NCBI RefSeq assembly: GCF_026229185.1
Contig: NZ_JAGGJA010000001.1
Location: forward strand, 62,001-126,000
Direction: 5' to 3'
Length of the DNA: 64,000 nt
Source: Fodinibius salsisoli
GTDB lineage: Bacteria > Bacteroidota > Rhodothermia > Balneolales > Balneolaceae
A program made the translations under genes and the position numbers. Positions 27,026 through 53,653 of this stretch are shown here, one piece after another (the stretch's first letter is position 1; every line of letters starts with the position of its first letter). The notes beneath the pieces are model-generated. The model was given only the letters and a program-made list of their open reading frames with translations, did no database searches and was not told the DNA's origin.

Positions 27026-28480
27026 CTAAGGTTCTACCACTTCTAAGAAAGCCACATACGATTCATTACCGGGCGTCGTGAGCCGTACACTTCCCCGGTG
27101 TCCCCATTCCTGAATACCTCCTTCCCACTCCATCGAAACCGTTTCTGGCTCCGACCAGGTACCCTCATCAATATTCAGCCATTTAATCTGCAATTCCCTT
27201 GCAAATATCCAGGGATCCAGATCAACCGTATAGCGGCCTTCTGGAAAATAGACGGCATACTGTTCACCAATATTCGCCAGGCAATATGCTTCCATAGCGG
27301 AAGGAACAGAAGTTACATAAGATGATAATAGATCGTTATGGGGAACGGATTCGAAAATATTGAACTCCTCCAGCAGCATCGACATGGCTTTGATGTTGGT
27401 TTGAGCATGCTCCTCTAAGCCAATACCCCAGCCTCCTTCCGGGCGGTGAAATCGACTTGATGCGCTCCCCGCAAAGATATTTTTCCAGAATCGGGCTACT
27501 GCTTCTTTCCGGGATCCGGCAGAATAATTATCCCCTATACCCGAACCGTAAACCTTAACATTATTCATGGGCATCGGATCCGACTGAAGTTTATCTCTCC
27601 AGTTAGTAATATTGGCATAATGTGCCGGTCCCCGGGCACCGCGGGAGTCCTGATTATTTTGTGCGATTTCCGCATAAGAGTATAAATCGCGATAGGTCAT
27701 CACATGCCTGACCGAGCTGGAAGGATCAAATATCATACTCGTCACATAAATCTCTTTGTCTTGCTTTTTTGCTTCCTCACTGATGTACGATGCCCAGTAA
27801 TTGTCCCATACTTTACGCTGACTACCTTCATTATTGATATTGTATAAGACATTTCCATATTGAAGTGTAATGGAAAGCAATTTGTCGATATACTTTTGCT
27901 GATAGGCTATAATTTCTTTGTTGTCATCATAGACGGATCCCCCGTAAAAATCTTCCTCTCCTTCGAGAACCCCTGCTTCAAAAGTTATATTATTCGCTGG
28001 ATTCCAGGGATGCTTTTCCCAATTTCCGCCGCTCATATCGAAATGGTCCCACAGGGTAAGCTGAACGATTATTTCCCTCCTGCTGGTTTCCTGCAGAAAG
28101 AATTCCAACCTATCCCAGTACTCTTCATTCCATTGATCGAGATCATACTTCCCACTTTCAAGCTTTTTGAAAGCGTAGGCATCTCCATCATCACGGTCAG
28201 ACATCGTATTTCGCACATAGTTGCCTCCCAGCGAGACAAGAAGATCCAGATGATCGGTCAGTTTGCTGCCTGTCCATTGAAACAAATTATCATTATTAGA
28301 TCCACCAATCAGTACTAACGGCTTTCCCTCATATTGCCAATACCAAGGGTTCTCACTATACGGTTGGATAACAGCCTCACCAGCATCATCTTGAGCATGA
28401 ACTTTTTCGACTGATTGTACTAATCCAACGCATGCAACCAATAGCAGTACAAATAAGCGGATGGTTATTTTTGAAGACAT
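27026..28480 (-). CDS. Secreted GH-A-clan TIM-barrel glycosidase, distantly apiosidase-like
   Basis: The 484-residue protein has a signal peptide to about VHAQ (residue 30). It then shows a TIM-barrel pattern seen in GH5- and GH140-like enzymes: GKPLVLIGGSNNDNLFQW at 52-69, LGGNYVRNTM at 84-93, a VQLTLWDHFDM strand at 139-149 and NVLYNINNEGS at 210-220. The Asn-Glu at 218-219 is in the right place for a clan-A acid/base. A later GGWGIGLEEHAQ and a C-terminal small beta-domain complete it. It shares layout with the GH140-type protein at 40945-42342 but is clearly divergent. It follows the BASS transporter gene after 45 bp. Activity unknown. Confidence 0.65.
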   Translation of the reverse strand: MSSKITIRLFVLLLVACVGLVQSVEKVHAQDDAGEAVIQPYSENPWYWQYEGKPLVLIGGSNNDNLFQWTGSKLTDHLDLLVSLGGNYVRNTMSDRDDGDAYAFKKLESGKYDLDQWNEEYWDRLEFFLQETSRREIIVQLTLWDHFDMSGGNWEKHPWNPANNITFEAGVLEGEEDFYGGSVYDDNKEIIAYQQKYIDKLLSITLQYGNVLYNINNEGSQRKVWDNYWASYISEEAKKQDKEIYVTSMIFDPSSSVRHVMTYRDLYSYAEIAQNNQDSRGARGPAHYANITNWRDKLQSDPMPMNNVKVYGSGIGDNYSAGSRKEAVARFWKNIFAGSASSRFHRPEGGWGIGLEEHAQTNIKAMSMLLEEFNIFESVPHNDLLSSYVTSVPSAMEAYCLANIGEQYAVYFPEGRYTVDLDPWIFARELQIKWLNIDEGTWSEPETVSMEWEGGIQEWGHRGSVRLTTPGNESYVAFLEVVEP

Positions 28481-28525: not shown

Positions 28526-29851
28526 TTACACTTTTGAAGCATAGGCTTCTTGCTTCTGTTCGACCGTCAGATCTGATTCTTCGTCAGCCAGTTGCTGTTT
28601 TCTCCAGTAGTTGGCCAAAATAGAGCCGGTAATATTCATCCAGGGGCTGAATACCGCGGAAGCCAAGCCAACCGTCCCCAGCTTGCCCATACTGCCTGCC
28701 AAACCGGAGGCCATGCCGCCGTTCTGCATCCCCACTTCAAAAGCGATCGCCCGCGCCGAATTTTTATCCAATCCCGATAAGCGGGCCAATCCGTAACCAA
28801 ATACATAGCCGGCCGTGTTGTGGATAATCGCTGCCGCAAACAGTAAAAGACCTATCGTGAGCAGATGCTCACGACCGGCAGCAGTCGTCACGGTGGTAAA
28901 ATAGACGATACCAAACATCGATATATAGGGCATAATCTCATCTGTCTTTGGGAATCGAACTGTGAGCCAATAATAGCCCACACCGGCCAGAATAGCGCTT
29001 CCTACAAAGCCCACCATCCCGGCTGATTGAAGCAATGCAGGCGGTAGAATACCTGATAACACATTCCATAAACCCAACGGCAGTGCGCTCAACCAAACGG
29101 CACTAATCCAAGACAATATCTTCACTATTCGCCAACCTTTACCAGAAGCTTTTTTCAGGTAATCATACAGCAGGGCCGCTCCGATGGGAATGATCACAAT
29201 CTTGATGATCTGCATCATCATGTCGACGAATAAAACCTCGATCAACGTACCGGAAAGAAGTTTCATCAACAAAGGGGTCATGAAAGGAGCCACGAGGGTG
29301 GACATAGCTGTCATGGTCACCGATAGCACCAGGTTGGATCGGGCCAGGTAGACCATCACGTTGGAGGCCAGTCCGCCTGAGCAGGAACCAATTAATATGA
29401 CGCCGGCTGCAATTTCTGGGTCGAAGCCAAATAATTGCGTTAACCCAAATCCCACCAGCGGCATAACCGAGAAATGTGCCAGTAATCCAATCAGTACGCC
29501 CCGACCCGATGTTGCCAGGCCCGAAAAATCATCCACGCTCATTTGGGTGCCCATCCCAAACATCACCAGCTGTACGACAATCAATATGACCCAAGGGTGT
29601 CGCAAGTCAAAGCTGCCCCATTCCAGAAATGCCGAGGGATAAATCATTCCGCATACCACTGCGGTGACGATCCAGCCGGTGTATTGATAGTTTTGCAGCG
29701 CCGGGATGGCCCCCATCCCAACTGAAAAACTAACCGCCAATCCCACCGCCGCTGCCTGCCACAGTCCTGCAGTACTGCCTAATAGTCCAACTATCAGCAG
29801 CAAAAGGCTACCACCGGTTACCCCCAGGCAAAGTTTGCGAAATAATTGCAT
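28526..29851 (-). CDS. BASS-family sodium symporter (bile acid:sodium symporter-like)
   Basis: The 441-residue membrane protein has about ten or more hydrophobic segments. It carries the family hallmarks VMFGMGTQMSVDDFSG and GVILIGSCSGGLASNVMVYLARSN; the GSCSGGLASN stretch forms the crossover region of these carriers. BASS proteins move organic anions such as bile acids, pyruvate and pantoate with sodium. Its place right behind the racemase-like, kinase and RuBisCO-like genes, with an 8-bp gap, suggests uptake of a sugar acid used by that module, for example apionate or aceric acid. The substrate is inference. Confidence 0.85.
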   Translation of the reverse strand: MQLFRKLCLGVTGGSLLLLIVGLLGSTAGLWQAAAVGLAVSFSVGMGAIPALQNYQYTGWIVTAVVCGMIYPSAFLEWGSFDLRHPWVILIVVQLVMFGMGTQMSVDDFSGLATSGRGVLIGLLAHFSVMPLVGFGLTQLFGFDPEIAAGVILIGSCSGGLASNVMVYLARSNLVLSVTMTAMSTLVAPFMTPLLMKLLSGTLIEVLFVDMMMQIIKIVIIPIGAALLYDYLKKASGKGWRIVKILSWISAVWLSALPLGLWNVLSGILPPALLQSAGMVGFVGSAILAGVGYYWLTVRFPKTDEIMPYISMFGIVYFTTVTTAAGREHLLTIGLLLFAAAIIHNTAGYVFGYGLARLSGLDKNSARAIAFEVGMQNGGMASGLAGSMGKLGTVGLASAVFSPWMNITGSILANYWRKQQLADEESDLTVEQKQEAYASKV

Positions 29852-29860
29852 AATGGTTTA

Positions 29861-30520
29861 TTAAAGTACGGAAGCCAGGTATTCTACAGCAGTTGGGGGA
29901 CTGGCAAGGATCGGAACGGTCTTTTCGGATTCATCCAGCTGGTCAACGACCCGTGCCATCGATGCCTGGGCCAGCAAAATTACTTCGACCTGGTCCGAAA
30001 GCTCTTTCAGCGCTTCTGCCACCATAGCATCGTGTTTCTCAGGATTACCGCCCATCAGGGCATCAAAGGCGCCCTCGCATAGTCTGGATGTCAGTTCGAT
30101 CTCTTTTCCTGCTTTGGCAGCTCTTCGCTCAACGAGATCACTCGTCGGATTAAGAGTAGTGGGCAAAGTGGCAATGACGCCAATCTCCTGACCCGTTTTT
30201 ACCGCTTTATCGGCCATCGGCTGATCGACACGAAGCACCGGCACATTACTCAGGGTATCGGCGGTTTCCACAGCCGAACCGATGGATGAACAGGTCACCA
30301 GGATATAATCGGCTCCGGCATCTTCCGCGGATCCTACATACTCTACGACTCTCCGGGCCGTTGACGGGGTCAGCTCACCTTCTTCAATACAGATACTGAT
30401 CAGGCTGTCATCAACGATGTTAAATCGATCGATACCATCCAGATGCTCATTACAAAGTTCTTCAAAAATCGGTACAAGCGTTGCCGAAGTATGGATGAGT
30501 CCTAAGGTTTTGTTGCTCAT
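29861..30520 (-). CDS. Asp/Glu/hydantoin racemase-superfamily protein with a single catalytic-type cysteine
   Basis: The 219-residue protein has the two-lobed racemase fold. The first catalytic segment is intact (ILVTCSSIG, Cys77). At the expected second site it reads LLAQASMAR (residues 183-190), without a cysteine. True racemases use two cysteines, while arylmalonate decarboxylase, maleate isomerase and related members vary, so an isomerase or decarboxylase-like role is possible. The gene is 19 bp behind the DUF1537 kinase and 9 bp before the BASS transporter, so it is almost certainly part of the same cytoplasmic sugar-acid pathway. I do not recognise it as a named enzyme. Confidence 0.75.
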   Translation of the reverse strand: MSNKTLGLIHTSATLVPIFEELCNEHLDGIDRFNIVDDSLISICIEEGELTPSTARRVVEYVGSAEDAGADYILVTCSSIGSAVETADTLSNVPVLRVDQPMADKAVKTGQEIGVIATLPTTLNPTSDLVERRAAKAGKEIELTSRLCEGAFDALMGGNPEKHDAMVAEALKELSDQVEVILLAQASMARVVDQLDESEKTVPILASPPTAVEYLASVL

Positions 30521-30539
30521 AATGCTATATCATTTGTTA

Positions 30540-31946
30540 TTAAAAATTGTGATGACTCTTTCCTTCCAATACCATTCCAAAATACTCTTTGGGTCCCACC
30601 TGCCCCCCTTTGATATTCACTTCGAGCCCATCCAGTGATTCTTTTGAGGCCGAGATTTTACACAGCGGTGCCCCTGGGACAATGGGGGCTATCATTTTCA
30701 ATGCTTCGATATCCAACGCATGGGCGGCAAAGCTGGAGGTATCCCCACCGGCAAAGACCACACGCTGTAGATCGAATTGCTCCGATGCCTCTCCCACGAT
30801 TTTGCCCAGCGCGGTGCCAAACAATTGAGCTGTGCGGGTACGGATCTCGTAATTGCTCAGTCCCTGCTGATCAAACACCGCTTTTGTAGCATTGATCCGT
30901 GAATCATCAGCCCCGAAACTGGTATGCACGATGACATTTTCTCCTTTTCTCAGTAGTTCTACTACCTCTGCAACATGCTGGTGATGGATTGAAGGTATAT
31001 TCCCTTTCTTCGCAAGAGCTTCCGTATCCAGGGACACTTCTTCAAAACCATTCACAAGCGCCCATTCGATCTGTTTTGACGTTACCGGCGACCGACTTCC
31101 GGAAACCACCAGCATGGGCGCTGCTTTTCCCGGGCTATCCCAGGTTTCTCGGGGCCGCAACCTTTCTTCTTTTATCCAGTGATTGCCCAGTACCATTTCG
31201 ATGCCGGACGACCCTACCGAAAAAAGGGGATCGTTGGGTGACCCATATTCGTCAATCAGGCTTCCAATCCGAGTCATATGTTTCTCTTCCAGCGCATCAA
31301 AAAGGACTACGTCCGCACCTTCCCGGACAGTTTCTTCAAGGATTCGACGGGTTTCCTCCCCTTCTTTGGCAACCTCAAGCAGGTTAAGCAAGCCAACCTC
31401 CTTTGCCGTCTGTCGGCCGAGATGTAACCGAAGATCACTTTCATCGGCCGGTGTAATCGGATGATCTTTCATGGAGGGATGGCGGTCCAGCCGAAAAATA
31501 TCGCCGTCACTTCCGATGCCCATCCGGGCAAACAGGTTGCCGAAGGTACAATATCTTCCTAAGGCAGGAGCCGCCACCAGCAAAGGAATGAAGCTGGAAT
31601 CAAAAATATCTGCGGCGATATCAATCACTTTGCCGATACTTCCAATAGTCGGAGACGAATCGAAGGTCGAACAGACCTTATAATGGATGTGCCTGGCCTT
31701 TAACTCTTTCATCGCTTTTAAAGCACGGGGAAGCTCCTGCTCCATTTCTTCCGGCGTCATCGCCCGACTTCTGCCGGCTACCCCGATCGCATCCAACTGC
31801 TCATACTCGGCAAGCTGATCGGGTGTGGGCGGCTCCATGAAGAGTATGGATTGGGCTCCAACCCGGCTCATAAATTCAAGAGCATCGGTCGAGCCGGTAA
31901 AATCATCACCATAAAAAGCCAATAAAGGGTCAGAGTTGCCGGCCAT
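30540..31946 (-). CDS. DUF1537 four-carbon/branched sugar-acid kinase
   Basis: The 468-residue protein has both DUF1537 halves. The N-terminal substrate domain starts LLAFYGDDFTGSTDALEF. The C-terminal nucleotide domain carries VFAGGDTSSFAAHAL and the VNIKGGQVGPKEYF loop. Kinases of this family phosphorylate 3-oxo-tetronates or, when paired with RuBisCO-like proteins, 3-oxo-isoapionate (OiaK) in D-apiose breakdown. Its ATG shares one base with the stop codon of the upstream RuBisCO-like gene (TAATG at 31944-31948), so the two are probably translationally coupled. A GH140-type apiosidase in the same gene run supports a branched-sugar role; the exact substrate is not settled. Confidence 0.88.
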   Translation of the reverse strand: MAGNSDPLLAFYGDDFTGSTDALEFMSRVGAQSILFMEPPTPDQLAEYEQLDAIGVAGRSRAMTPEEMEQELPRALKAMKELKARHIHYKVCSTFDSSPTIGSIGKVIDIAADIFDSSFIPLLVAAPALGRYCTFGNLFARMGIGSDGDIFRLDRHPSMKDHPITPADESDLRLHLGRQTAKEVGLLNLLEVAKEGEETRRILEETVREGADVVLFDALEEKHMTRIGSLIDEYGSPNDPLFSVGSSGIEMVLGNHWIKEERLRPRETWDSPGKAAPMLVVSGSRSPVTSKQIEWALVNGFEEVSLDTEALAKKGNIPSIHHQHVAEVVELLRKGENVIVHTSFGADDSRINATKAVFDQQGLSNYEIRTRTAQLFGTALGKIVGEASEQFDLQRVVFAGGDTSSFAAHALDIEALKMIAPIVPGAPLCKISASKESLDGLEVNIKGGQVGPKEYFGMVLEGKSHHNF

Positions 31947-33199
31947 TACTGATTTCCTCCAAATTTTTGAACAGACTTTGCAAATTCCGGGTACTTATCG
32001 GCCGTCTCTTCCACCGACTTGCCTTCAACAGTCCCTTCCCAGGCTTGCTTCAGCGCCTTTACGCCCTCAGCCGGTCCCCCGGGATGCCCGAGGATACCTC
32101 CACCGGCCATATAGAGCAGGTCCGTTGTGCCCGTACGGCGATAAGTCTCGGGAGCTTGCCCTCCCCACTGTCCCGATGAAACCACCGGCAGTATTGAATA
32201 ACCGCCAAGCAGGGGTTTCAGACAGGATTTAATGGATTTGACTACGGAATCATCCGACTCCCAGAATTTATTCTGAATGCCATTCACATGAATTTGGTCA
32301 ACTCCTGCCAGCCGCCACAATTTTTGATAAGCAGGAAACTCAATGCCCAACAGAGGATGCCTGTTCAGCATGCCCCAGCCGTTGCGATGGCCATGGATCA
32401 CCAATTCGCCCTGGTCACAAATTTTCTTAGCGGCGGAAAGTCCTATGCTGTTAAGACTGAGCATGGCACAGGTGCCTCCCGATTTCACAATTTGTTCATA
32501 TCGACGCAGCATATCATCCATCTCGCCGCTGATATTGAAGGCATACATCACTTTTTTACCGGTCCTGTCCGCATGCCTGTTGATCACCTTCATCACGGCC
32601 TCCAGTCGCTTCTCAAATGGAGAATTAGCCGTCGATCCCATCAATTCATCATCTTTTATAAAATCGATGCCGGTGTCCACCAATGTATCCACAAGTTCGG
32701 CGGTCTGCCCGGGCGACATGCCAACACTGGGCTTGATGATCGTTCCTATCAGGGGCCGGTCCTGTACTTGGGCCGCCTGCCGACTCCCTTCAATACCAAA
32801 ATTCGGTCCATTGAAATAATCGCTAAACGAAGGGGGCACTTCCAGATTCATGAGTTTAAGTCCCGTAAACTGACGAAGCTCGTACAGATTTCCCTGCAGG
32901 GTGGAGATCATTACCGGCAGATTATATCCAAAATTTTCTATCGACCAGGATACTTCTACATTCGCTCGCTGATATGAATGCCCCTTCGAATCCACACTCA
33001 CACCGGGCAAGCTGGGGTTTTGCACGGTATCCAGCGGCTCTATGGATTCCACACGGGCTGCAAAACGTTCTTTAAGCTCCTCGGTCTCCCCCGGCACATC
33101 GGTAAAAGTCCCTGAAGACTGTTCCCCAGCCAATACTTCGGCGGCCTGTTCAATTGCCAGCGGGGTCTCAATGTAGTACTGTGCGGTAATACGTTCCAT
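31946..33199 (-). CDS. RuBisCO-like protein (form IV), probable sugar-acid-phosphate decarboxylase or transcarboxylase
   Basis: The 417-residue protein keeps the RuBisCO large-subunit layout. By eye I can place N104 (QGN), K156 (GTIIKP), the metal/carbamate motif K182-D184-E185 (DFIKDDE), H269 and H271-R272 (HGHR), H304, a loop-6-position Lys (K311, seven after H304), S342-G343 and the glycine-rich phosphate loop AGGGILGHPGG. RuBisCO-like proteins next to DUF1537 kinases act in D-apiose pathways as 3-oxo-isoapionate-4-phosphate decarboxylase (OiaX) or transcarboxylase/hydrolase (OiaT). It sits 26 bp after the GH127 gene and is coupled to the kinase gene. A role on D-apiose or aceric acid derived from pectin is inferred. 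Confidence 0.88.
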   Translation of the reverse strand: MERITAQYYIETPLAIEQAAEVLAGEQSSGTFTDVPGETEELKERFAARVESIEPLDTVQNPSLPGVSVDSKGHSYQRANVEVSWSIENFGYNLPVMISTLQGNLYELRQFTGLKLMNLEVPPSFSDYFNGPNFGIEGSRQAAQVQDRPLIGTIIKPSVGMSPGQTAELVDTLVDTGIDFIKDDELMGSTANSPFEKRLEAVMKVINRHADRTGKKVMYAFNISGEMDDMLRRYEQIVKSGGTCAMLSLNSIGLSAAKKICDQGELVIHGHRNGWGMLNRHPLLGIEFPAYQKLWRLAGVDQIHVNGIQNKFWESDDSVVKSIKSCLKPLLGGYSILPVVSSGQWGGQAPETYRRTGTTDLLYMAGGGILGHPGGPAEGVKALKQAWEGTVEGKSVEETADKYPEFAKSVQKFGGNQ

Positions 33200-33225
33200 A
33201 AACTGAGAAAGAATAGAATTTCAAT

Positions 33226-35268
33226 TCACCTGATAACCGGCATCCAAACGGTCATATTGGTCTCACTTCCGCGGTTGCCCCAGGCGTAGTAGGGCATCAG
33301 TTGGATGCCAACCGGAGTAGGTTCTTTTGCAGATACCTCCCGGTAAAGTTGTCCTTCCCATTCCGGATCCTGTACCAGCTTGGCCTGCCCTTTCAGGGCC
33401 ACCACTTCACTTGATCCAATCTGCTTGCGCACTTTTTCAAATTTGATGTCCGATGGAATGGCAATATCAAAGATTGACTCGCTTTTGGGTACATCCACCG
33501 ATTCCATGCTGTACACGATGGGGCCGCGCTTCACGGCCACTTGATTACGGTTGGCCTCTACCAACGGGTTGGCTTCCAGCAGCTTCACTTCCATCGGCAG
33601 GTCCAGCGTTACCTGATCTCCGGCCGACCAGCTTCGGTTAATCTCAGCATACGTACCGGGTTCAGCCTCAGTATCAATGACCTTGCCATTAACCTTGATA
33701 TTCGCATTATCCGCCCAGCCCGGGATGCGAAAAAAGACTGAAAACTTATCGCTCGGCACTTTCTCCATAGTCAGATTGATCGTCCCTTCCCACGGATAAT
33801 CGGTTTTCTGGATTATGCTAAGGTCACCGCCCTCGCTGCCCAGAGAGGTTGACAGTGTATTGCTGCCATAAATATTGACATACAAGCCTTCCTCCGATAA
33901 GCTATAGGCAAAATTTTGAACCTCCGCTACGGTCCGTATTAAATTAGGCGGACAACAGTTTGAAAGACTGATGTATTCCTCTCGCTCTTTGGACCATCGC
34001 AGATTATAGGGAAGGTCCTGATCGACCCGTAATGGATTGGTGTAGCAATAACGGCGGCCATCCAGGCTTACTCCCGAGAGCACACTGTTATGGAGGGCCA
34101 GCTCCACGATATCGGCATACTTGGCTTTTCCCGTAGCCAACAGCATCCGCCAGTTCCAGAGCATATGACCAATGTTAGCACAGGTTTCGTTATGCGCTGT
34201 CATATTGGGTAACTCATAGGCATTTCCATAGGCCTGGTGCACCTGCTGGATTTCCGATGGATTGTAGCTTATGCCATCCGGCGAGACCCCGTCATAGAGG
34301 GCACCGGTAGCTCCCGTCACATACATCTTTGTCTGTATCACATCTTTCCAAATCTCCTGCAGCGGTTCCAGCAAGGTTTCATCGCCTGTTTCCATATACA
34401 AATCTGTCACTCCCGCATATAGGTAATTTGCGCGGACCGCATGTCCCACCGCCTTGGTTTGTTTTCGAAATGGCTTGTGGTCCTGGTTGTGAAAGGTGCC
34501 CTTTTCAACTTTATCCCGTAGTGTGATCAACCCTTTGGCCAGCTCAAGATATTTGGGACCTCCGGTAGTCCGGTACATTTCTACCACGCCCATATAGTGC
34601 GAAGGACAGATGGCATTACTCACCAGTTTAGACGGCTCATTTTTATAGACCTCATATAGAAAATCAGTGGCACGTATCGCTATATCCAGTAACGACCGCT
34701 TACCGGTAGCACGGTAATGGACTGCCGCAGCGGTCTGCAAATGACCAATATTGTACGTTTCAAAATCGCGGTCCAGCGGCTGGGCCTCTTCATCACCATT
34801 CTGGCGGGCAATGGTCAGAGCCGTAAAAATATAACCATCCGGTCGCTGCGCCTTGCCAATCACATCTACAATGCGATCCATCGCCTGCGCCAGGGTGTCC
34901 TCTTTAGTGACGGCATAAACGGCGGCCAGCCCTTCAAACCATTTGTAGAAGTCGCCATCATGAAAGGTGGGTCCTTCGTGGGTTCCCTCTTTCAAACCTG
35001 CTGCAATTTCAAAATTTCGATAAGCATGACTAATTTCCGGATCCTGGTACATGTCTCCCATGTGCGGCACCATCGACTCCCGCGCTACCCGGAAACGCTC
35101 GCCCCAGAAGCCCTCGGTCCATTTTACCGCATCCATATCAACGCTGTGCATGGCAGCATGTCGACTTTCAGCCGTATTGACCAACCCCCGCTGCTGGGCT
35201 GTCGCAGTAACGGTTGAAATCAGAAACCCCAGCATTACACCAGTAAAAAGACCTGTCCGTGTTTTCAT
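33226..35268 (-). CDS. GH127-family glycosidase (beta-L-arabinofuranosidase / aceric acid hydrolase type)
   Basis: The 680-residue protein has a signal peptide to about TATAQ (residue 25) and an (alpha/alpha)6 barrel. The zinc/cysteine centre of the family is present: ETC with Glu361 and Cys363, and a Cys438-Cys439 pair in SNCCPPN. In the characterised arabinofuranosidase HypBA1 the acid/base Glu lies 16 residues before the ETC Glu; here that position is Gln345 (VHQAYG). A GH127 enzyme of Bacteroides removes aceric acid in RG-II breakdown, and this variant may belong to that branch. It is followed 26 bp later by the RuBisCO-like gene and preceded by an esterase gene. Confidence 0.88.
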   Translation of the reverse strand: MKTRTGLFTGVMLGFLISTVTATAQQRGLVNTAESRHAAMHSVDMDAVKWTEGFWGERFRVARESMVPHMGDMYQDPEISHAYRNFEIAAGLKEGTHEGPTFHDGDFYKWFEGLAAVYAVTKEDTLAQAMDRIVDVIGKAQRPDGYIFTALTIARQNGDEEAQPLDRDFETYNIGHLQTAAAVHYRATGKRSLLDIAIRATDFLYEVYKNEPSKLVSNAICPSHYMGVVEMYRTTGGPKYLELAKGLITLRDKVEKGTFHNQDHKPFRKQTKAVGHAVRANYLYAGVTDLYMETGDETLLEPLQEIWKDVIQTKMYVTGATGALYDGVSPDGISYNPSEIQQVHQAYGNAYELPNMTAHNETCANIGHMLWNWRMLLATGKAKYADIVELALHNSVLSGVSLDGRRYCYTNPLRVDQDLPYNLRWSKEREEYISLSNCCPPNLIRTVAEVQNFAYSLSEEGLYVNIYGSNTLSTSLGSEGGDLSIIQKTDYPWEGTINLTMEKVPSDKFSVFFRIPGWADNANIKVNGKVIDTEAEPGTYAEINRSWSAGDQVTLDLPMEVKLLEANPLVEANRNQVAVKRGPIVYSMESVDVPKSESIFDIAIPSDIKFEKVRKQIGSSEVVALKGQAKLVQDPEWEGQLYREVSAKEPTPVGIQLMPYYAWGNRGSETNMTVWMPVIR

Positions 35269-37861: not shown

Positions 37862-39712
37862 TCAAAATCCTTCGAATTGTTCTGTTTTCAGGGAATGAAG
37901 ATAGTATACAGCTTCTTCAACCGGTTTCCCGGCCTTTTCCAGGTCAGCCCCCTTCTTTTCCATCGTATCAATAGTCGGGAAATAGCGACGATCACCCGTG
38001 CGAAATACTACGCGACTTAAATCATCAACGGCCACATAGAACCGGCGGAAGGTTACTCGCTCTCCGTTCAGGTAGAGGGCATATTCCCAATTTTCAGCAT
38101 CATATTCGATGCAAAACTGATACTCTTCACCGGCTTCATATTCCAGCAAGTCATTATTTTTGGGCCCCACCTTTAGCTTTAGTATCCCATCTTCATCAAA
38201 GATGATTCGAACAGCCCCCGTCCCCTTGGCATCCTGCATTTCAATCTCAAGAGTCCCATAGTCGGACTGCCCTGGAGTTACGGTGAATTCGGTCGCCAAT
38301 CGTTTAGATTCAGGAAAAAGACGATCCACCCGCGCGTAATCGTAACGGTCACGGTCTGTCAATGTCAATGCTTTAGTCCCACTGTCATTTTCAGAAATGT
38401 TAACAGCCGCCCACAGCGGACTATATATGTTCCATTTTTGAAGATCCTTGATAGAAGTGATGCCTTCAAAATCCTGGTCCACCTGCTTTTCGGCCCCGCC
38501 CTTTATAGGTATCGGGACAGAAGCGACCCAAATATCTTCTTTATTCATGCTGTAGGTCAACCACATATTGTCATCCGGCGGACTCCCATTCCCCTCCAGT
38601 ATACCCCGAACATATTGTGGTCCAAACGATTTGTACGCGCCGATATATCTCCGGGGAGGTATTTCTCCGGTAATGAGCCATAAATTATGGTAATCCAACC
38701 CATTTTCGCTGGTGGAAACAGCCAATGGCCAGCGGTATTCCTCAGCCGGATTGTACACCATCGCATATCGACCATCCGAGGTTCGCTGTGCCCACTGTTT
38801 GGCATTGGCCGTTACAAAGCCGGGGGAACGAACAGGATGGTATTCCCAGCTTTCTCCATCATCTTGGCTAATAGACGTCAACGCATGTTTCCAAAATCCG
38901 ATTACTCGACCATTGGGAAGATGATAGTAACTCAAAGCCTTAAATTGATCTTGCAGGGGAATAATCGGGTCATCCCGATCCGCCTCTTCCACCCACTGTT
39001 GTACCATCAGTGGCGTATCTCTCAGTTCGTTGCAGGCTTCAACAAAAGCTTCATTGTCACTTGAGGTATAATAGGGATAGGAAGTGTTATCCTCATCCCA
39101 TCCGTCATTATAATTAATGAAATGGATAGGACCGTAGCTGCCGTCTTTTTTTACCTCCCGTACGACCCGGCCGATGCCCTCTCCATCATTGGGATCCCCC
39201 TCCTCGGATATTGCTATTCCGTGGTAAGCAAGGGTAAGCATCGTACCATTTTCGGCCACATAGAACCCCATGCGTTGGTGCATAAGGGAGCTGTCATTGT
39301 GAGCGACCGCTCCATTTTTTTCTGTCCCGTCAGGTATAGGATAAGGTGCGAATACCACTTCCGGCGTAGACCAGTTGTATCCGTCGTTGGAGGTCGCAAT
39401 CAGTGTTTGTCCGGGAGGCTCGTGTTCTCCCACGGGGTTGCTTAAATACTGAACATAATAAGTCCCATTCCAGTAGGCCATATTGGGCGCATGATTATAG
39501 GTCCAGCCCGTTCCTTCAGCGCGATCCGGGAATTCCCGATTTGCACGTAGTATCTGGATATTATGAACCCCCATGACCGGCGGCAACTGCCCGTGATGAT
39601 AATCCATGTTAGGCAGGATCTTTCCATGAAATCGAGCAGTATCCGGTGCCTGTGCGCCTGCGGAAACATACCACAGGAAGCAACAAATAACTGTTATACT
39701 TTTCTTCAACAT
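37862..39712 (-). CDS. Two-domain secreted protein: BNR-type propeller plus C-terminal jelly roll
   Basis: The 616-residue protein has a signal peptide to about SAGAQ (residue 21). The first 420 residues form a propeller, with MGVHNIQILRANREF, WTYNHAPNMAYWNGTYYVQ, LIATSNDGYNWSTPEVVF, DDGESWEYHP and WLTYSMNKEDIWVASVPIP. A C-terminal beta-sandwich of the concanavalin/LamG type follows (from about QDFEGITSIKDLQKWN, including YALYLNGERVTFRRF). The propeller resembles enzymes annotated as exo-sialidases and the L-rhamnose-glucuronate lyases of the PL27/PL42 type; I hold that link weakly. It is in tight order with GH43 (17 bp) and the BNR protein (46 bp). Confidence 0.6.
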   Translation of the reverse strand: MLKKSITVICCFLWYVSAGAQAPDTARFHGKILPNMDYHHGQLPPVMGVHNIQILRANREFPDRAEGTGWTYNHAPNMAYWNGTYYVQYLSNPVGEHEPPGQTLIATSNDGYNWSTPEVVFAPYPIPDGTEKNGAVAHNDSSLMHQRMGFYVAENGTMLTLAYHGIAISEEGDPNDGEGIGRVVREVKKDGSYGPIHFINYNDGWDEDNTSYPYYTSSDNEAFVEACNELRDTPLMVQQWVEEADRDDPIIPLQDQFKALSYYHLPNGRVIGFWKHALTSISQDDGESWEYHPVRSPGFVTANAKQWAQRTSDGRYAMVYNPAEEYRWPLAVSTSENGLDYHNLWLITGEIPPRRYIGAYKSFGPQYVRGILEGNGSPPDDNMWLTYSMNKEDIWVASVPIPIKGGAEKQVDQDFEGITSIKDLQKWNIYSPLWAAVNISENDSGTKALTLTDRDRYDYARVDRLFPESKRLATEFTVTPGQSDYGTLEIEMQDAKGTGAVRIIFDEDGILKLKVGPKNNDLLEYEAGEEYQFCIEYDAENWEYALYLNGERVTFRRFYVAVDDLSRVVFRTGDRRYFPTIDTMEKKGADLEKAGKPVEEAVYYLHSLKTEQFEGF

Positions 39713-40944: not shown

Positions 40945-42342
40945 TCATACACTGTCTAAAATTAACACCCAGTCGTTGCCATTCTTTTTCTCGCCCGGCG
41001 GATCAAATTCACGGGTCCCTTCATTGGCATACGTTCCAATCTCTTTTTCACTCCCGTCCCGGGGACTGTACCACGTGGCTTTGACCTCCTTTCCATCGAT
41101 CTTCCCCATGGCGATATTCATCTCTCGGCCGTTATAGGTGTAGATAAAGGCATAATCGCTACCCCGTGTGGCCGCCAAATAGTCGTTCCGCTCCCCTTGC
41201 TCAACTACCAATGAAGCGTCCGGCATCCGTTCCAGGAACGGACGGGAAAGCATCAATTCTTTCAAGTGAATCATTTGTTCCGCTCCCGGATCATCAATTG
41301 CATTATACCAAGCTTTCCTGACTCCAAAAGCGCCTTCAACGCCCGGCTCATGCATCTGCATAACTGCATTATGACCATAGGTGTATCCAAAGGCACCGGC
41401 AAAAACGGACCAGTAACCATACCGGCGCACATGCCGGGCCTTCCAGCGGGGCTCTTCGGGATTATGCAAACCCTGCGGAATCTCTTCATAGGAGGGCTCG
41501 GCATCAATCGTGGGTTTTACCGGCTTTTTCTCGTAATCCATCTTCACATACCGCCAGTTATCTTCCCCAAAATTAAGCTCCGTGTCATCCTGGTCATACC
41601 GACGATGCCCCGACTGTATCATGTTGAAGTCCAGCCACGGCTCCGTATGAAACCACATGGATGACATTTTTCTTCCACGCGGATGAAAAGTGATCAGGTG
41701 ATTGGGATCTTTTTCATTCAACGTATTCCCGATGATCTTCCACGTAGCTGTGGAATCGCTGCCAAAGGTATCTCCGCCGTTGAGCCAGACAATGTTGGGT
41801 TTGTCTTTATACCGGTTGGCCATGAATGCTGCATACTTCCCGGCCTCTTCCCGGCTCACATTACCCGACTTCACATTGTTGCCCCAAACGGGGACCAACG
41901 CCATATATAAATCCCGCTCGGCAGCTTCTTCTACCAGGTAATCCACATGATCCCAGTAGTCGTAGGCAGTGGAATCATCGAACTCAGTTCCCTCGGTTAT
42001 TCGGGGTTGACCGACACTCTTTGAGGTAAAGGCACTGTCTCCGTACACATTCGCGGATTCCACGGACGGTATGGCCATCACCTGAATGACATTAAACCCT
42101 TTATCTTTTCGATTGTCCAGGTATTTTAGTGCATCCTCTCTGTTCAGCTTGGTAAAGAGTAGCCAAGCCGTATCGCCCAGCCAGAAAAAAGGTTCTCCCT
42201 GTCCGTCGACCAGGTACCGATTATTTTCCGAGACTTTCAACTCGCTCATCTTCTCATCCTTCTTATTCTTTTCCGGCGTATCTGTTGAACAGGCTGCCAG
42301 AGACATCCCAATGAGAAAACAGAGACTATAATATCGTAGCAT
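40945..42342 (-). CDS. GH140-type D-apiosidase lipoprotein
   Basis: The 465-residue protein is a lipoprotein (SLAAC, Cys18). It matches the apiosidase-like catalytic domain (DUF4038): NRYLVDGQGEPFFWLGDTAW at 41-60, KGFNVIQVMAIPS, MALVPVWGNNV at 147-157, NIVWLNGGD at 183-191 and PTIDAEPSYE at 277-286. A C-terminal small beta-domain completes it (YTYNGREMNIAMGKIDG). Asp191 and Glu282 fall at the positions of the catalytic acid/base and nucleophile of the Bacteroides RG-II apiosidase. The expected activity is release of D-apiose from RG-II or apiogalacturonan. It follows the beta-helix fusion gene after 28 bp. With the RuBisCO-like/kinase module downstream it gives the locus an apiose theme. Confidence 0.85.
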   Translation of the reverse strand: MLRYYSLCFLIGMSLAACSTDTPEKNKKDEKMSELKVSENNRYLVDGQGEPFFWLGDTAWLLFTKLNREDALKYLDNRKDKGFNVIQVMAIPSVESANVYGDSAFTSKSVGQPRITEGTEFDDSTAYDYWDHVDYLVEEAAERDLYMALVPVWGNNVKSGNVSREEAGKYAAFMANRYKDKPNIVWLNGGDTFGSDSTATWKIIGNTLNEKDPNHLITFHPRGRKMSSMWFHTEPWLDFNMIQSGHRRYDQDDTELNFGEDNWRYVKMDYEKKPVKPTIDAEPSYEEIPQGLHNPEEPRWKARHVRRYGYWSVFAGAFGYTYGHNAVMQMHEPGVEGAFGVRKAWYNAIDDPGAEQMIHLKELMLSRPFLERMPDASLVVEQGERNDYLAATRGSDYAFIYTYNGREMNIAMGKIDGKEVKATWYSPRDGSEKEIGTYANEGTREFDPPGEKKNGNDWVLILDSV

Positions 42343-42370: not shown

Positions 42371-45300
42371 TTAATTTATATCGCTATCTATCCATATTAT
42401 GGAGGGTGATGACGGGGCCTTGTCCAATTTCAGCGTTCCATCTTTCACCAAAGTTTCTTGCTCTTTCAGTATCTCTCCATTCTCAGGATCGATCCAGCTA
42501 ATCGTGACTGACTCCACACTTGGATCTACCTCCAGCTGCCGGATACCCCGCGTTCGACTGTAAATAATGTATTCCTGTTTATCCCGGCTTAAAGCCCACT
42601 GCTGGTTTCCAAACTGCTGAACCGGCTGCATCGTAGCGGTATCGGTTAAAAATTCCTTGTTCTCCACTTCCGGGATAGAGGCCAGCGATCCGCCTGCCAT
42701 AAACACCGCCCAGCCGAGATCAGGGTCTTTCCTCGCTGAATAGGTGACCGGTTTCTGTGGAAATTGTTGTCGGTATTCGGAAACCGCCCGGTAGACCTGT
42801 TCAAACGAAGTTGATCCGTATTCCACCAGCCGGGCATGCTGCCGGGGTGCCAAAAACTGTCCGCCTTTCGGAGCATATAAGCTGCCATCCTTGCGGTAGT
42901 GCCAGCGCCGAATATCAATCAGGTCAACGGTTTTGGCACGTTCCTTGTCGGCTAAAATGGCATCCTGAACGTCTTTGGTGACGCTTAACCCGATAAAGGC
43001 ATCGTTCCCGGTCGCTTCTTCCCATTCCTGAATCGTATCAATCCAGAACTGAACAAAATGGAGCGGACCGGTGTATTCAGCACCAATAAACTGGATCACG
43101 TTGCTGTTTCCGGTAAAATTGGAAAGAGATTTTTTTATGTACGACTGGTGAAGGCTTCGCCGCTTGGGATGGGTAACATCATAAAACTGTTTGGACATAA
43201 AAATACGCTTATCGCCCGCGTAGTTCGGAGGCTCAGGGAAACCGGTATCGTTAATATTGTTGGCCGTTCGCCACGGGAAATCGGCCCAGTGGGCTCCGGC
43301 CTCCAGAATATTATGCTGAAAATAGTTCTGGTGGATCAGCATAATCCCTTCCCGCTCTGCCATATCTGCAAACTGATCGAGGCGATCCCAATACCAAGGA
43401 TTGTATTTCGTTAGGTCGTACTTGCTGAGTCCATCCCAGGCTGTACCCTTTCCGCTGCGGGCAAAAGGCTGTTCATAAAAAGGAGCCCAGACATCCCCAT
43501 CCATGCGCCGTACCCGCTGGTGATCGTCGCGGCGGCGCTCGTACCAAAGTCCATAATTATGATCCAGGGCCGCAACATTTTGCCGGTCAAATGTTTCTAC
43601 AACCTGTTGCAGGCTGTCGGTAAGTCCGTACCCATAGTGACCCGGCACATAACGGGTTACATGAGGCGTCGCTTCCTTGGTCGCAAATGGACGCATTCCG
43701 CCCCGCCACCAGCGCACACCTTCCCTTCTCCCCATTAACACCTGTCCGTTCTGAACTAACCAGCCGTTTTTGACGGTAACTTTGGGAGCAGGAGGGTTCT
43801 TATCAGGGGCAGCCACATCCGATGGTTCTAATCTTTTCACTCCTGTGGCAGTTGTCGGAATAGGATTGCGTTCCGAAGCGTTGTCAATCCAGTCCTCCAA
43901 CTGTGGAGCCGTCTCCATGGCAGCTGCAATTTGTTCAGCTGCCTGCTTTTTTGTGGGGCTTGTGTAAGATTTTGTGGTAATCGGCAGTAAATCCGCTCGA
44001 CTCATGACCTGTTCTCCCAGCCGCTCCGAAAGCTGGGCATAATACAAACTGCGAGGATCCACATGATCATTGACATTTCCCCAGTAGCCGGAACCAGAAT
44101 ACTGTGACCACACTCCTATGGCCCAATTTTCAGCCGTGGGAGGCTTGGCGCAAGCAATCATTGCGGCGCTGCATTGCCAAACCATGCTGTTGGCGGCCGT
44201 CCAACCTGCTCCCCGGGCACCCTGACCGCGATTAGCCAGCCGCAGAGCATTACCTTTCACATTCACAATATCAAAAAGAGCTCCTGAAGCCCAGCTGTTG
44301 ATCGTACCGCTAAAACTGTGGGGATGCATGGATGTTGCCTGAACAAAAGCGTTGAGTGTCGAAAGGTAACCGACTGCAAAATCATGGTAGCCATTTTCAG
44401 CATACAGGCGCTGAAAAAGCGTCTGCTGTCCCTTGGTCCAAAAGGTGTATCGTCGCTGACCACCTATCTCGGAGACAGGGTTCAGTGACTTGCTGTCTTC
44501 CACCGTGATACTTCGTCCGCTGCGGCGGACCAGCACCGCCGAACCCGCGAAGTGCTCAAATACGACCTGTCGCACCCAGGCATCCGCTACATTCTCCATC
44601 GTGATAGCCATCCAGCGGTGCGATTCATCTTTGGGATTATCCTTATCATAAGAAGAAACCAGTCGTATATTTTCAATGCCGACCTGGCGAATCCGTCCGG
44701 GCCAGAAATATTGGGCAATTGTTCCACCTCCGTAGGTGGAATCCAAGGCCGTGGTAATGGGGGCATCGATGAAAACGGTATCATCGTTAATCTTCGTAAC
44801 TTTTCGATCCCAGACGATATCCCGTTCTCCGGGTTTCCAGCCAATCCAGTCTATATTACCGCCGAACTCCGCCATTCCCAGCTCCTCGATCCACTTTGCT
44901 GTGCTCGGGCGCCGAATTACAACCTGATCTCCTTCCTGGAACAGCTCCGGCTTTTCTACCGCAAATTGCATGGCATTGACCGGCACATACGGCTGAGAAA
45001 CATCTACTTCCGTTCCTAATTTCCGATCTCCTTTTCCAACAATCCGAATCAATTCTTTTCGATCCTGACCGGCAGCCTCTATCACCGTCCCTTCCTTACT
45101 CATTCCGCTCCCTCTCAGTATTACACCAGAAGTTCTCAGAACAAGTTGTCCGGAAACCGAATAGGTGCCCTTTTCAAGCAAAACTGCTCCTCTCAGCCCC
45201 CTGTCATCAGCCGGGAGTGAGGCTACATAATCCAGGGCCGATTGGATACGCCGGGTATCATCTCCTTTCTTAAGCGGAACCACTATTTTGACAGGGGCAT

Positions 45301-45535
45301 CGGGTATCGGCTCATTTCCTGCCATATATCCGGCATAGGAAAAGTCGGGCACCCGGTTGCCCTGGTCATCACGAGCGTACCCCAGTTCTCCATTCTCTTT
45401 GGAGAATACGGGGCTTTCTTGCTCCTGTGCTGATACCAACACGACATTTCCGAATACGAGTAGCCCGACCGCCAATGCAACAGGAAGCCATCCCGCAAAA
45501 TATGATTTAATGGCTAATTTATATCTGACATTCAT
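42371..45535 (-). CDS. Large secreted fusion: right-handed beta-helix plus TIM-barrel-like domain (DUF6298-like)
   Basis: I use the ATG at 45533-45535; an in-frame TTG precedes it. The protein of about 1054 residues has a signal peptide ending near VSAQ (about 37). Residues roughly 80-540 look like a pectin-lyase-type beta-helix: DDTRRIQSALDYV, GAVLLEKGTYSVSGQLVL, GVILRGSGMSKEGTVI, then repeated short strands. From about 590 on comes a second enzyme-like domain: NGWLVQNGQVLMGRREGVRW, VAALDHNYGLWYERRRDD, WYWDRLDQFADMAEREGIML, a NVIQFIGAEYTGP strand, and a C-terminal beta-domain with YIIYSRTRGI. This half resembles GH-A-like barrels. Activity unknown; it heads the operon that contains the apiosidase. 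Confidence 0.65.
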   Translation of the reverse strand: MNVRYKLAIKSYFAGWLPVALAVGLLVFGNVVLVSAQEQESPVFSKENGELGYARDDQGNRVPDFSYAGYMAGNEPIPDAPVKIVVPLKKGDDTRRIQSALDYVASLPADDRGLRGAVLLEKGTYSVSGQLVLRTSGVILRGSGMSKEGTVIEAAGQDRKELIRIVGKGDRKLGTEVDVSQPYVPVNAMQFAVEKPELFQEGDQVVIRRPSTAKWIEELGMAEFGGNIDWIGWKPGERDIVWDRKVTKINDDTVFIDAPITTALDSTYGGGTIAQYFWPGRIRQVGIENIRLVSSYDKDNPKDESHRWMAITMENVADAWVRQVVFEHFAGSAVLVRRSGRSITVEDSKSLNPVSEIGGQRRYTFWTKGQQTLFQRLYAENGYHDFAVGYLSTLNAFVQATSMHPHSFSGTINSWASGALFDIVNVKGNALRLANRGQGARGAGWTAANSMVWQCSAAMIACAKPPTAENWAIGVWSQYSGSGYWGNVNDHVDPRSLYYAQLSERLGEQVMSRADLLPITTKSYTSPTKKQAAEQIAAAMETAPQLEDWIDNASERNPIPTTATGVKRLEPSDVAAPDKNPPAPKVTVKNGWLVQNGQVLMGRREGVRWWRGGMRPFATKEATPHVTRYVPGHYGYGLTDSLQQVVETFDRQNVAALDHNYGLWYERRRDDHQRVRRMDGDVWAPFYEQPFARSGKGTAWDGLSKYDLTKYNPWYWDRLDQFADMAEREGIMLIHQNYFQHNILEAGAHWADFPWRTANNINDTGFPEPPNYAGDKRIFMSKQFYDVTHPKRRSLHQSYIKKSLSNFTGNSNVIQFIGAEYTGPLHFVQFWIDTIQEWEEATGNDAFIGLSVTKDVQDAILADKERAKTVDLIDIRRWHYRKDGSLYAPKGGQFLAPRQHARLVEYGSTSFEQVYRAVSEYRQQFPQKPVTYSARKDPDLGWAVFMAGGSLASIPEVENKEFLTDTATMQPVQQFGNQQWALSRDKQEYIIYSRTRGIRQLEVDPSVESVTISWIDPENGEILKEQETLVKDGTLKLDKAPSSPSIIWIDSDIN

Positions 45536-45538
45536 CAA

Positions 45539-47511: not shown

Positions 47512-48453
47512 TTAAATATCCGACTGAAATACAGATTTCATGTAAGCTGCATTTGCTCCATAATTCCCTTGTATATCATGAGGGTCATCTGCATTCCTGG
47601 AACGCTCCAACACCAGCCAACCGCTCCATCCCATATCATCAAGCGTCTTTTTAACTTTTTGCATGTTCAAACGCTGATTGTTCTCTAACAACACACCATC
47701 CTTATCGGTACAATGGATTTGACAAATACGGTCTTTGCCCAAAGTTCTAAGCTCCTTATGCAGATCTCTGCCCGCCTGTAGGGCATTGGCAAAATTGAAG
47801 TAGCTTTGGATAGCTGAAGACCCGATATCTTCCAACAATTCCACTTCCCTCTGCGCATCATAAGCGGTCTCAATACCAATGATTACCCCCGCTTTTTCTG
47901 CCTTTTCGGCTACTTTCTTTAACCTGTCAACAACCTTGGGTCGCAACTCCGGGTTCTTCACTAAATTACTTTGTACGCCCAGCGGTAAAAAAGCGACTTT
48001 GACTCCCATGGCCGTCATCGTATCAATGCAGTCCTGCACCATGCGCATGACGGTAGGTCGCTCTGCAAATGACTGTGCATAAAATCCGGACATGGCAATG
48101 GAGGAGATTTCCAAATCCAGGCTGGCAGCGGTATCTAAAAATTCCTTTCGCTTGGAAGCTTTGTCCAATTCGCTGTCAAATGTTTTGCGATCTCCCAGTC
48201 CACCCATATCCACTTCAACACCATTTACTCCAATCTTGTCGGCTATCGGGAAGGCATCTAAATCCTGTCGCTGGAGAATCATCCAGTCGCACACACCAAT
48301 TTTATAGCGATAATCGGTACCAGACTGGTAAGGTCGGATCCCGGCCTGTGACCAACCGGGTATGGCTACCATTGATCCGGCTACTGAAAATGCAGCTGTT
48401 TTCAAAAAATCACTGCGGCTGATATTCCTTGCTTGCTTATCGTCTGTTCCCAT
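47512..48453 (-). CDS. Secreted sugar isomerase/epimerase-like TIM barrel (AP-endonuclease-2 family)
   Basis: The 313-residue protein begins with an ISRSDFLKTAAFSVAGS segment that resembles a Tat-type export signal with only one arginine, so it is probably exported. The mature part is a xylose-isomerase-like barrel: YKIGVCDWMI, NGVEVDMGGLG, VAFLPLGVQSN, GVIIGIETAYDA, QIHCTDKDG and WLVLERSRN. The Glu, His and Glu of the usual metal site are visible, while the Asp-bearing segment reads YFNFANAL. The family interconverts sugars or sugar acids. Its place between a DUF3826 gene and a pectate lyase suggests work on pectin products in the periplasm; substrate unknown. Confidence 0.75.
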   Translation of the reverse strand: MGTDDKQARNISRSDFLKTAAFSVAGSMVAIPGWSQAGIRPYQSGTDYRYKIGVCDWMILQRQDLDAFPIADKIGVNGVEVDMGGLGDRKTFDSELDKASKRKEFLDTAASLDLEISSIAMSGFYAQSFAERPTVMRMVQDCIDTMTAMGVKVAFLPLGVQSNLVKNPELRPKVVDRLKKVAEKAEKAGVIIGIETAYDAQREVELLEDIGSSAIQSYFNFANALQAGRDLHKELRTLGKDRICQIHCTDKDGVLLENNQRLNMQKVKKTLDDMGWSGWLVLERSRNADDPHDIQGNYGANAAYMKSVFQSDI

Positions 48454-51697: not shown

Positions 51698-53653
51698 CTA
51701 TTGTTCAGCGAGGGGGTCAAAGGTTCCACCCCAGCCTTCAGTCTGTTCTAAATACGGGTTAGTATCCATCAATTCCTGATAAATGCCCAGGAAATAAAAC
51801 TCATTATACCATTGGAAAGTCCAGTTGTTGTCCGTAGGATCCAGATCGTCACGAACGGCAACACGGAAATAATTATCCCGTAACCATTCCGAATATTCAT
51901 CCTGATTGTTAATCCCTTCAGGGTATTCATCGGGCTCACGGCTTACTACCGGCGCATTTTCGCCCTCAAACGGATCATCAGAACCCACATAATCATTACC
52001 TTCGCCATCTTGGGCAATAAAGTAGAAACCGGTTCTTCGAGTACCTTGGATAGGTTCGATTCCCAGACGACTGCAGGTTCCAAAGTCATCATTGAACAGC
52101 ATCCACCGTTTTAGTGTGTAATACCGCTTATTCCTTTCATAGGCAAACTCTACTTGTCGTTCTTTTACAACGGCACCTAACAAACCATCCCGAGAATTTA
52201 CATTGGCCAGCCCGTAGCTACCGTCCATATTCTCTATACCGGCACGTTCACGGATGTCCATAATCCCCTGCTTTCCCTCTTGCAGTTTTCCTGCACCAAT
52301 GGCGGATTCTGCGAGATTCAGTACCACTTCGGCGAAGCGTAACTCGATATAGTCATTACCAGAGGCTGTGAAAAAGTCGTCATTAGAAGAGTTTGCTGTG
52401 GTCATCTTTTTGACATAGAAACCACTATTATTTGCAGCATCACCCGTATTTTCATTCGGTGCTTCTAAGCCTTCTTCACCAAACCAGGTATAATTCCAGG
52501 AGCGGTACTCTGGATCTTGCTCGTACGCAAATTCATCTCCGGTAAAAACAAAAGTAGCATAAAAGCGTGGATCCCGGTCCTTATAAAAGGTTTGCAAATC
52601 GTATTCATAATTTGGAGACTCGCCCGGCTGCCTCCCGTCTTTCATCGGGAATGCATCTACCGTTTGCTTTGTAGGTTTTAACTGGTTAAAAGAATTTTGA
52701 TCACTGGGTCGTGTAACCGTCTCCCAACCGCTGTTCATCTGTATCTGGTCCTGGGTATTATTATTAAAACCCCATACCCAAACAGCTTCCGGATTATTTA
52801 CTTCTTCGCTCCAGATATCTCCCCAGTCGCCCTGATATAACCCAAATCCATTAGCCTCCAAAATTTCTTTCGCTTCTTTATTAGCCTCGTAGGCCGCTTC
52901 CCACCTTGCCCGATCGTCGTTTCGGTTAAATTGCGGACTTGCCCACAACAAGGCAGCGCGTCCTTTTAAAGCCGCTGCCGTTCCGCTGGTTACGCGGCCC
53001 CAGTCCGATGCATCTTCCCATCTTCCCGGAAGCAGCTCCTTGGCTTTATCCAAATCCGACATTGCCTGCTCTAAGGTTTCTTTTGCAGAGCTTCTGGGCG
53101 TTTCTCCCGCGGGATCTACAATCGGATTTTTGGGTTCCAACTCAATGGGCACCCCACCATACCAGCTTGCCAAATCGAAATACTGAAATCCTCTCCAAAA
53201 ATACATCTGTCCCTTCAGGCGATTTTTTGTTTCCTCATCCATCGTATCGTATTTGTCGACATTGGTGAGGAACAGGTTAATTTGACGTATCCGGGTGTAC
53301 GTAGTATTTCGAACCCTGTTTTCCATCTTGCGACCAATATAATCCCAGGCATGGTACTCACTCGGTGAGATCTCTGCCCACTCTTGATTCCACCGGCTTT
53401 CTCCATAGGCTTCATCACTGGTTTGCATTAAATCATCATTATGTGAATGAATATAAAACCATTGCGGCGCATTCCCATCCGAAGGAAGGAACTGACCATA
53501 TATATAATCCACATAGGCTGTGGCCCGTAAAGGATCTTTAAAGACTTCTTCGTTTGAGCCCGTATAGTCTTCTTTTGCTGACAGAAAGCTGTCATCACAA
53601 GACATCACTGCTACTAATGAGACCAATAAAAGTACTATATTAAATTTTTTCAT
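51698..53653 (-). CDS. SusD/RagB-family outer-membrane glycan-binding lipoprotein (second pair)
   Basis: The start is the ATG at 53651-53653, giving MKKFNIVLLLVSLVAVMSC, a lipoprotein signal; the longer open frame would overlap SusC. The protein of about 651 residues is longer than the first SusD (about 514). It has the family segments KGQMYFWRGFQYFDLASWYGGVPI, TSGTAAALKGRAALLWASPQFN and, near the C-terminus, VVKERQVEFAYERNKRYYTLKRW. It follows SusC after 20 bp. The larger size may reflect a larger ligand. Pectin fragments made by the adjacent PL1 lyases are the likely cargo. Confidence 0.93.
   Translation of the reverse strand: MKKFNIVLLLVSLVAVMSCDDSFLSAKEDYTGSNEEVFKDPLRATAYVDYIYGQFLPSDGNAPQWFYIHSHNDDLMQTSDEAYGESRWNQEWAEISPSEYHAWDYIGRKMENRVRNTTYTRIRQINLFLTNVDKYDTMDEETKNRLKGQMYFWRGFQYFDLASWYGGVPIELEPKNPIVDPAGETPRSSAKETLEQAMSDLDKAKELLPGRWEDASDWGRVTSGTAAALKGRAALLWASPQFNRNDDRARWEAAYEANKEAKEILEANGFGLYQGDWGDIWSEEVNNPEAVWVWGFNNNTQDQIQMNSGWETVTRPSDQNSFNQLKPTKQTVDAFPMKDGRQPGESPNYEYDLQTFYKDRDPRFYATFVFTGDEFAYEQDPEYRSWNYTWFGEEGLEAPNENTGDAANNSGFYVKKMTTANSSNDDFFTASGNDYIELRFAEVVLNLAESAIGAGKLQEGKQGIMDIRERAGIENMDGSYGLANVNSRDGLLGAVVKERQVEFAYERNKRYYTLKRWMLFNDDFGTCSRLGIEPIQGTRRTGFYFIAQDGEGNDYVGSDDPFEGENAPVVSREPDEYPEGINNQDEYSEWLRDNYFRVAVRDDLDPTDNNWTFQWYNEFYFLGIYQELMDTNPYLEQTEGWGGTFDPLAEQ

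Follow-up and report, generated by a model that had tools for sequence, protein, structure and literature searches.

Gene organization of the locus

The window analyzed in this work is a stretch of 64,000 nucleotides from Fodinibius salsisoli (positions 62,001 to 126,000 of contig NZ_JAGGJA010000001.1, assembly GCF_026229185.1), whose genome is a 4.85 Mb draft of 43 contigs. It contains five open reading frames (ORFs) located back-to-back on the minus strand, from position 35268 down to 28526, which probably serve the use of L-aceric acid. This branched acid sugar, 3-C-carboxy-5-deoxy-L-xylose, is a constituent of rhamnogalacturonan II (RG-II), a pectin domain that occurs throughout the plants. 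The run starts with a gene encoding a glycoside hydrolase of family GH127 (33226..35268; Pfam PF07944, NCBIfam NF049879). It is followed by genes encoding a RuBisCO-like protein, RLP (31946..33199; PF00016/PF02788), a DUF1537 kinase of the four-carbon acid sugar kinase family (30540..31946; PF07005 and PF17042), a protein with an Asp/Glu-racemase fold (29861..30520; PF01177, 84 bits) and a BASS-family sodium symporter (28526..29851; PF01758), the last four genes being called here the cassette. GH127 and RLP are separated by 26 bp, the RLP and kinase genes overlap by 1 bp in a TAATG motif, and the two remaining gaps are 19 and 9 bp. A first-pass annotation, made from the DNA letters without database searches, had described this run with the same positions and spacing, and the families that it named agree with those found in Pfam.

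The GH127 protein carries the catalytic, middle and C domains of Pfam GH127 and reaches 1056 bits against the NCBIfam equivalog model AcerHdlse (NF049879), whose curated cut-off is 950. As it passes this model, it is predicted to be an aceric acid hydrolase, the activity characterized in BT1003 (PMC10850190).

Conservation of the cassette and association with aceric acid hydrolase

Cassette loci were collected by RLP sequence alone, using seven aligned RLPs as the query, and at least 80 loci were present among the matches listed, which span Bacteroidota, Verrucomicrobia and Planctomycetes. The four genes directly follow one another in the same orientation in 66 of 83 loci, therefore their arrangement is not due to chance; all four are found in 71 loci, and several of the exceptions are loci cut by contig ends or located in short contigs. 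Median gaps across the loci are -1, 18, and 11.5 bp. Within the order to which F. salsisoli belongs, this RLP was found in the window genome only, and the cassette was thus probably acquired horizontally.

Two samples were used to analyze the distribution of the aceric acid hydrolase. The first comprises 394 Bacteroidota genomes sampled evenly, seven of which encode the RLP; the racemase-like gene is confined to exactly the same seven, so that this gene is dedicated to the cassette. AcerHdlse is over the cut-off in all seven RLP genomes and in 12 of the other 387 (Fisher test, 3.8e-9, with the window genome left out). The second sample contains 48 named cassette genomes, picked mostly as isolates on long contigs, and all of them show an AcerHdlse-type gene: 44 are over the cut-off and the other four, which belong to Planctomycetes and Verrucomicrobia, reach 885-943 bits. 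Furthermore, this GH127 is the hydrolase that recurrently adjoins the RLP. It lies within 10 kb of the cassette in 42 loci, while GH140 was found in two and a BT1020-like gene in six, and in 25 of 80 loci its gene immediately precedes the cassette, with the next commonest family doing so in five.

Analysis of the RuBisCO-like protein

The RLP reaches 228 bits against Pfam RuBisCO large, with both PF00016 and PF02788 over their cut-offs. Catalytic positions were mapped from motifs, and K156, K182, D184, E185, H271, R272, H304, and K311 are invariant in cassette RLPs; the carbamylated lysine and the Asp/Glu metal ligands (K182, D184 and E185) are unchanged in all 39 sequences. On the basis of these domains and metal-ligand residues, the protein is classified as a member of the RuBisCO superfamily. 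Its scores against carbon-fixing RuBisCO are far below the cut-offs, and the same applies to MtnW, the 2,3-diketo-5-methylthiopentyl-1-phosphate (DK-MTP 1-phosphate) enolase of methionine salvage (139 vs. a cut-off of 513.6 for TIGR03332, and 184 vs. 409 for PRK09549); both identities were rejected.

The best NCBIfam model for the RLP is OiaX, the 3-oxo-isoapionate-4-phosphate decarboxylase (NF042437), with 501 bits against an equivalog cut-off of 700. This is the highest OiaX score in its order, where no protein exceeds the cut-off. In a phylogenetic tree of 58 rows, the cassette RLPs form a single clade (99/95) which is sister to annotated OiaX (99/94) and not included in it; those of other RLP-kinase systems, from Pseudomonadota and haloarchaea, branch further out. 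The protein thus groups with OiaX, away from the methionine-salvage enolases, a firm grouping with which would, according to the first-pass annotation, have refuted its proposal. The active sites differ at three positions, where cassette RLPs show H304, N104 and S158 instead of the Gln, Gly and Ala of OiaX.

The window genome has a second, distant RLP (C39:326204-326710, or 9363-10469 in its extracted locus), with 29.6% identity, which belongs to a type widespread in the order and sits far from the cassette clade in the tree. Outside these phyla, the Croceibacterium plasmid NZ_CP156083.1, which carries an RLP-kinase pair with a GH127-like gene, was considered as an independent case and rejected: its GH127 only reaches 87 bits against AcerHdlse and its RLP falls in another clade. 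Elsewhere on the same plasmid, a 50% identical homologue of the racemase-like protein lies with an MFS transporter. A comparable pathway may have been assembled independently in Pseudomonadota, although this case is only suggestive and was not counted.

Analysis of the kinase, racemase-like protein and symporter

The kinase reaches 408 bits against the 3-oxo-isoapionate kinase model OiaK (NF042436, cut-off 700) and 190 bits against the 3-oxo-tetronate kinase model OtnK (NF043035, OxoTetrKin, cut-off 350). In the kinase tree, which resolves the cassette group poorly and shows an OiaK-type affinity only, the cassette kinases lie outside the group partnered with OiaX and far from the 3-oxo-tetronate kinase. 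Scores and tree suggest an OiaK-type enzyme, and not a 3-oxo-tetronate kinase; action on 3-oxo-tetronates only had been named as a second finding that would refute the first interpretation.

The AlphaFold2 model of the racemase-like protein (pLDDT 95) shows the fold of aspartate racemase (Z 21.9, 2.4 A over 205 residues), with about 15-19% identity to solved PF01177 members. The first catalytic cysteine, Cys77, is invariant in the 76 sequences, and the position of the second is occupied by an invariant Gln185. Since the second catalytic cysteine is replaced, two-base racemization is unlikely, while a one-base proton shift would be possible.

The symporter reaches 121 bits against PF01758 (gathering cut-off 24) and 196 bits against TIGR00841, below the cut-off of that model. 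BASS proteins usually transport organic anions, and the presence of this gene is therefore consistent with an acid sugar and not with the neutral apiose.

Proposed pathway and alternative explanations

On the grounds of genomic association, we consider it likely that aceric acid is the substrate of the cassette. GH127 would release L-aceric acid from RG-II, and the BASS symporter would import its anion with Na+. The racemase-fold protein would then transfer the C2 proton of the open-chain aldose to C1, giving the 2-ketulose HOCH2-CO-C(OH)(COOH)-CHOH-CH3; it is the best isomerase candidate because it is the only cassette enzyme left without a role. This ketulose may be regarded, on chemical reasoning, as a homologue of 3-oxo-isoapionate, HOCH2-CO-C(OH)(COOH)-CH2OH, with CHOH-CH3 replacing one CH2OH. 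The DUF1537 kinase would phosphorylate its 1-OH, the same hydroxyl targeted by OiaK, and the RLP, acting like OiaX, would decarboxylate the beta-keto acid phosphate through a RuBisCO-type enediolate to a 5-deoxy-pentulose 1-phosphate. Finally, an unlinked aldolase would split this product into dihydroxyacetone phosphate and acetaldehyde, as proposed for 5-deoxyribulose 1-phosphate (PMC6302742).

The confidence in these parts differs. That aceric acid is phosphorylated as a keto acid and then decarboxylated by the RLP appears moderately probable, but the exact order of steps, including the role of the isomerase, is proposed tentatively. A complete dedicated pathway, in which the racemase-fold protein with its single Cys represents a novel type of sugar isomerase, the RLP decarboxylates a 3-C-carboxy-5-deoxy-pentulose 1-phosphate and cleavage yields dihydroxyacetone phosphate and acetaldehyde, is likewise put forward as a working model with somewhat less than an even chance of being right. 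The gene order and its conservation, the family assignments, the co-occurrence with aceric acid hydrolase, the placement of the RLP beside OiaX and its unchanged catalytic residues are results of computation; from them we infer the substrate, each reaction and their order, above all the isomerase role and the final aldolase.

Several observations weigh against this pathway. Approximately half of the cassette loci lack GH127 inside 10 kb, the gene being located elsewhere in these cases (27-55 kb from the cassette in four sampled genomes), and 12 sampled genomes have the aceric acid hydrolase without the cassette. AcerHdlse marks the use of RG-II in general, so that aceric acid cannot be told apart from the remaining RG-II sugars by co-occurrence only; in addition, the cassette loci are phylogenetically related and their counts are not independent. 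The cassette loci share no conserved aldolase, a search for a downstream aldolase of family PF00596 gave no candidate, and one of 34 cassette genomes has no class II aldolase at all. We know of no racemase-fold enzyme that isomerizes sugars, and all cassette reactions are predictions.

The first-pass annotation had proposed an oxidation next to the carboxylated carbon to reach a beta-keto acid. We depart from it here, as no oxidation would be needed if aldose-ketose isomerization of aceric acid already gives the ketulose, and isomerization is judged likelier because the cassette has no dehydrogenase. An unlinked dehydrogenase could still act on aceric acid (by oxidation at C4 or C2, or at C1 first), with the racemase-fold protein epimerizing an intermediate or acting later. 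This would share all the association evidence, and SDR and Gfo/Idh/MocA oxidoreductases are present near some cassettes, but no dehydrogenase family is conserved with them (the commonest ones occur near 9-13 of the approximately 85 loci) and the obligatory racemase-like gene lacks the second cysteine that two-base chemistry would use; we regard it as rather unlikely.

Degradation of D-apiose, in which the RLP and the kinase would be diverged forms of OiaX and OiaK using 3-oxo-isoapionate, with unlinked genes providing the missing steps, is quite unlikely. OiaX and OiaK are the best NCBIfam models for the RLP and the kinase, but both scores are far short of the cut-offs of 700, and the RLP active site departs from that of OiaX. 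A GH140 gene does lie 5.7 kb upstream of GH127 (40945-42342; PF13204, 388 bits), as first annotated, and 45 of the 48 cassette genomes show a GH140-like match, although one of nine weak cases checked has no PF13204 gene of any kind; presence of GH140 per genome hardly separates aceric acid from apiose, whereas within 10 kb of the cassette GH140 is rare and GH127 common. The lactonase and oxidoisomerase of the apiose route had been reported missing from the window, which was borne out, and the search for the apionate oxidoisomerase, the maker of 3-oxo-isoapionate, was extended to whole genomes: it was found in none of the 48, with a positive control at 7.8e-92. We take this enzyme to be the gene annotated as 'phosphogluconate dehydrogenase C-terminal domain', which adjoins proteobacterial RLP-kinase pairs. 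Furthermore, 27 of the 48 genomes show an apsI-like isomerase, which, together with split transketolase and kinase genes in some loci, matches the apsI/aplK/aptAB apiose route (gene names from PMC13001218) and indicates a separate apiose pathway in cassette genomes; the window genome lacks this isomerase, a point in favor of apiose. Of the two sugars originally suggested, aceric acid is thus the better supported (7/7 and 48/48 genomes, and 42 vs. 2 loci) and apiose is less favored; the AcerHdlse co-occurrence, the GH127 linkage, the missing oxidoisomerase and the BASS symporter together make aceric acid the likely choice.

It is highly improbable that the substrate is another RG-II acid sugar, such as 3-deoxy-D-lyxo-heptulosaric acid (Dha) or 3-deoxy-D-manno-octulosonic acid (Kdo), or an unrelated plant acid sugar, e.g., hamamelonate, with the GH127 linkage reflecting general RG-II clustering. 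RLP/DUF1537 pairs do act on several substrates, and a BT1020-like gene lies inside the window (37862-39712, by Pfam search), but such genes are near only six loci and the aceric-acid-type GH127 is the one hydrolase recurrently adjoining the RLP. An aldolase of the KDO/KDG type can cleave Dha and Kdo with no need for an RLP, and the window has a DHDPS-family gene at 57329-58231. An RLP has also been reported from the pathway for D-hamamelose (as cited in PMC8914248).

Other genes of the region

The neighborhood of the five genes is an RG-II utilization locus which, besides GH140 and the BT1020-like protein, contains GH106, GH78, GH95, pectate-lyase-like proteins and two SusC/SusD pairs. Despite the GH106 and GH78 rhamnosidases, no rhamnose isomerase RhaA was found in a search of the whole window genome. 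A xylose-isomerase-like TIM barrel gene (47512-48453), located within the same gene run and with homologues within 10 kb of nine other cassette loci, is a second candidate isomerase or epimerase. The DHDPS/KDG-type aldolase gene is followed by an SSF symporter gene (together 57329-59772) upstream of a SusC gene, and might form a route for Dha or Kdo; homologues of this aldolase are near three further cassette loci. Two genes encoding DUF6298, an uncharacterized domain, flank the region (27026-28480 and 42371-45538), the first covering the model partially. The SusD-like and SusC-like ORFs (51698-56883) share 58 bases as called, and the true start of the SusD-like ORF is therefore probably further in.

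In another cassette locus (L149:5165-9944), genes encoding an isomerase, a split transketolase and an FGGY kinase lie directly upstream of the cassette, and probably correspond to the apulose route of apiose catabolism.

Significance and comparison with known systems

Open-licence literature covers aceric acid and its release by GH127, and no catabolic route for this sugar was found in it, in agreement with the first-pass annotation. The module of RLP and DUF1537 kinase that phosphorylates and decarboxylates is already known, and what is new is the partner protein and, probably, the substrate. If the proposal is true, RuBisCO-like proteins gain a substrate, in a clade near OiaX yet with a different active site, and a function is assigned to a racemase-fold subfamily without one catalytic cysteine. 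The cassette would also serve as a genomic marker of bacteria with a possibly complete use of RG-II, and, being a defined set of four genes, makes the use of aceric acid a directly testable question.

The window shares with the RG-II loci of Bacteroides a BT1003-type GH127, GH140, a BT1020-like protein, GH106 and SusC/SusD, but has an intracellular module of four genes in addition. Bacteroides ihuae, used as a control genome, shows an AcerHdlse match but none in the RuBisCO-family control. The apulose route (apsI, aplK and aptA/aptB) is also derived from RG-II, employs an isomerase and then a kinase, and probably adjoins some cassettes (loci L149 and L097), but it uses a transketolase and an FGGY kinase and no RLP. 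With the Asp/Glu/hydantoin racemase superfamily, the cassette protein shares the fold and the first catalytic cysteine, and differs from its two-base racemases by Gln185.

The closest known system is that of OiaK and OiaX in D-apiose catabolism, which shows the same two families in the same coupled RLP-kinase order, a sister RLP clade with the same RuBisCO-type catalytic residues and, as proposed for the cassette, the phosphorylation and subsequent decarboxylation of a 2-hydroxy-3-oxo acid. The cassette proteins, in contrast, are under both equivalog cut-offs and differ in active-site residues; they are accompanied by a racemase-fold protein with one Cys and by a BASS symporter instead of ApnO and ABC/TRAP transporters, and they are linked to an aceric acid hydrolase.

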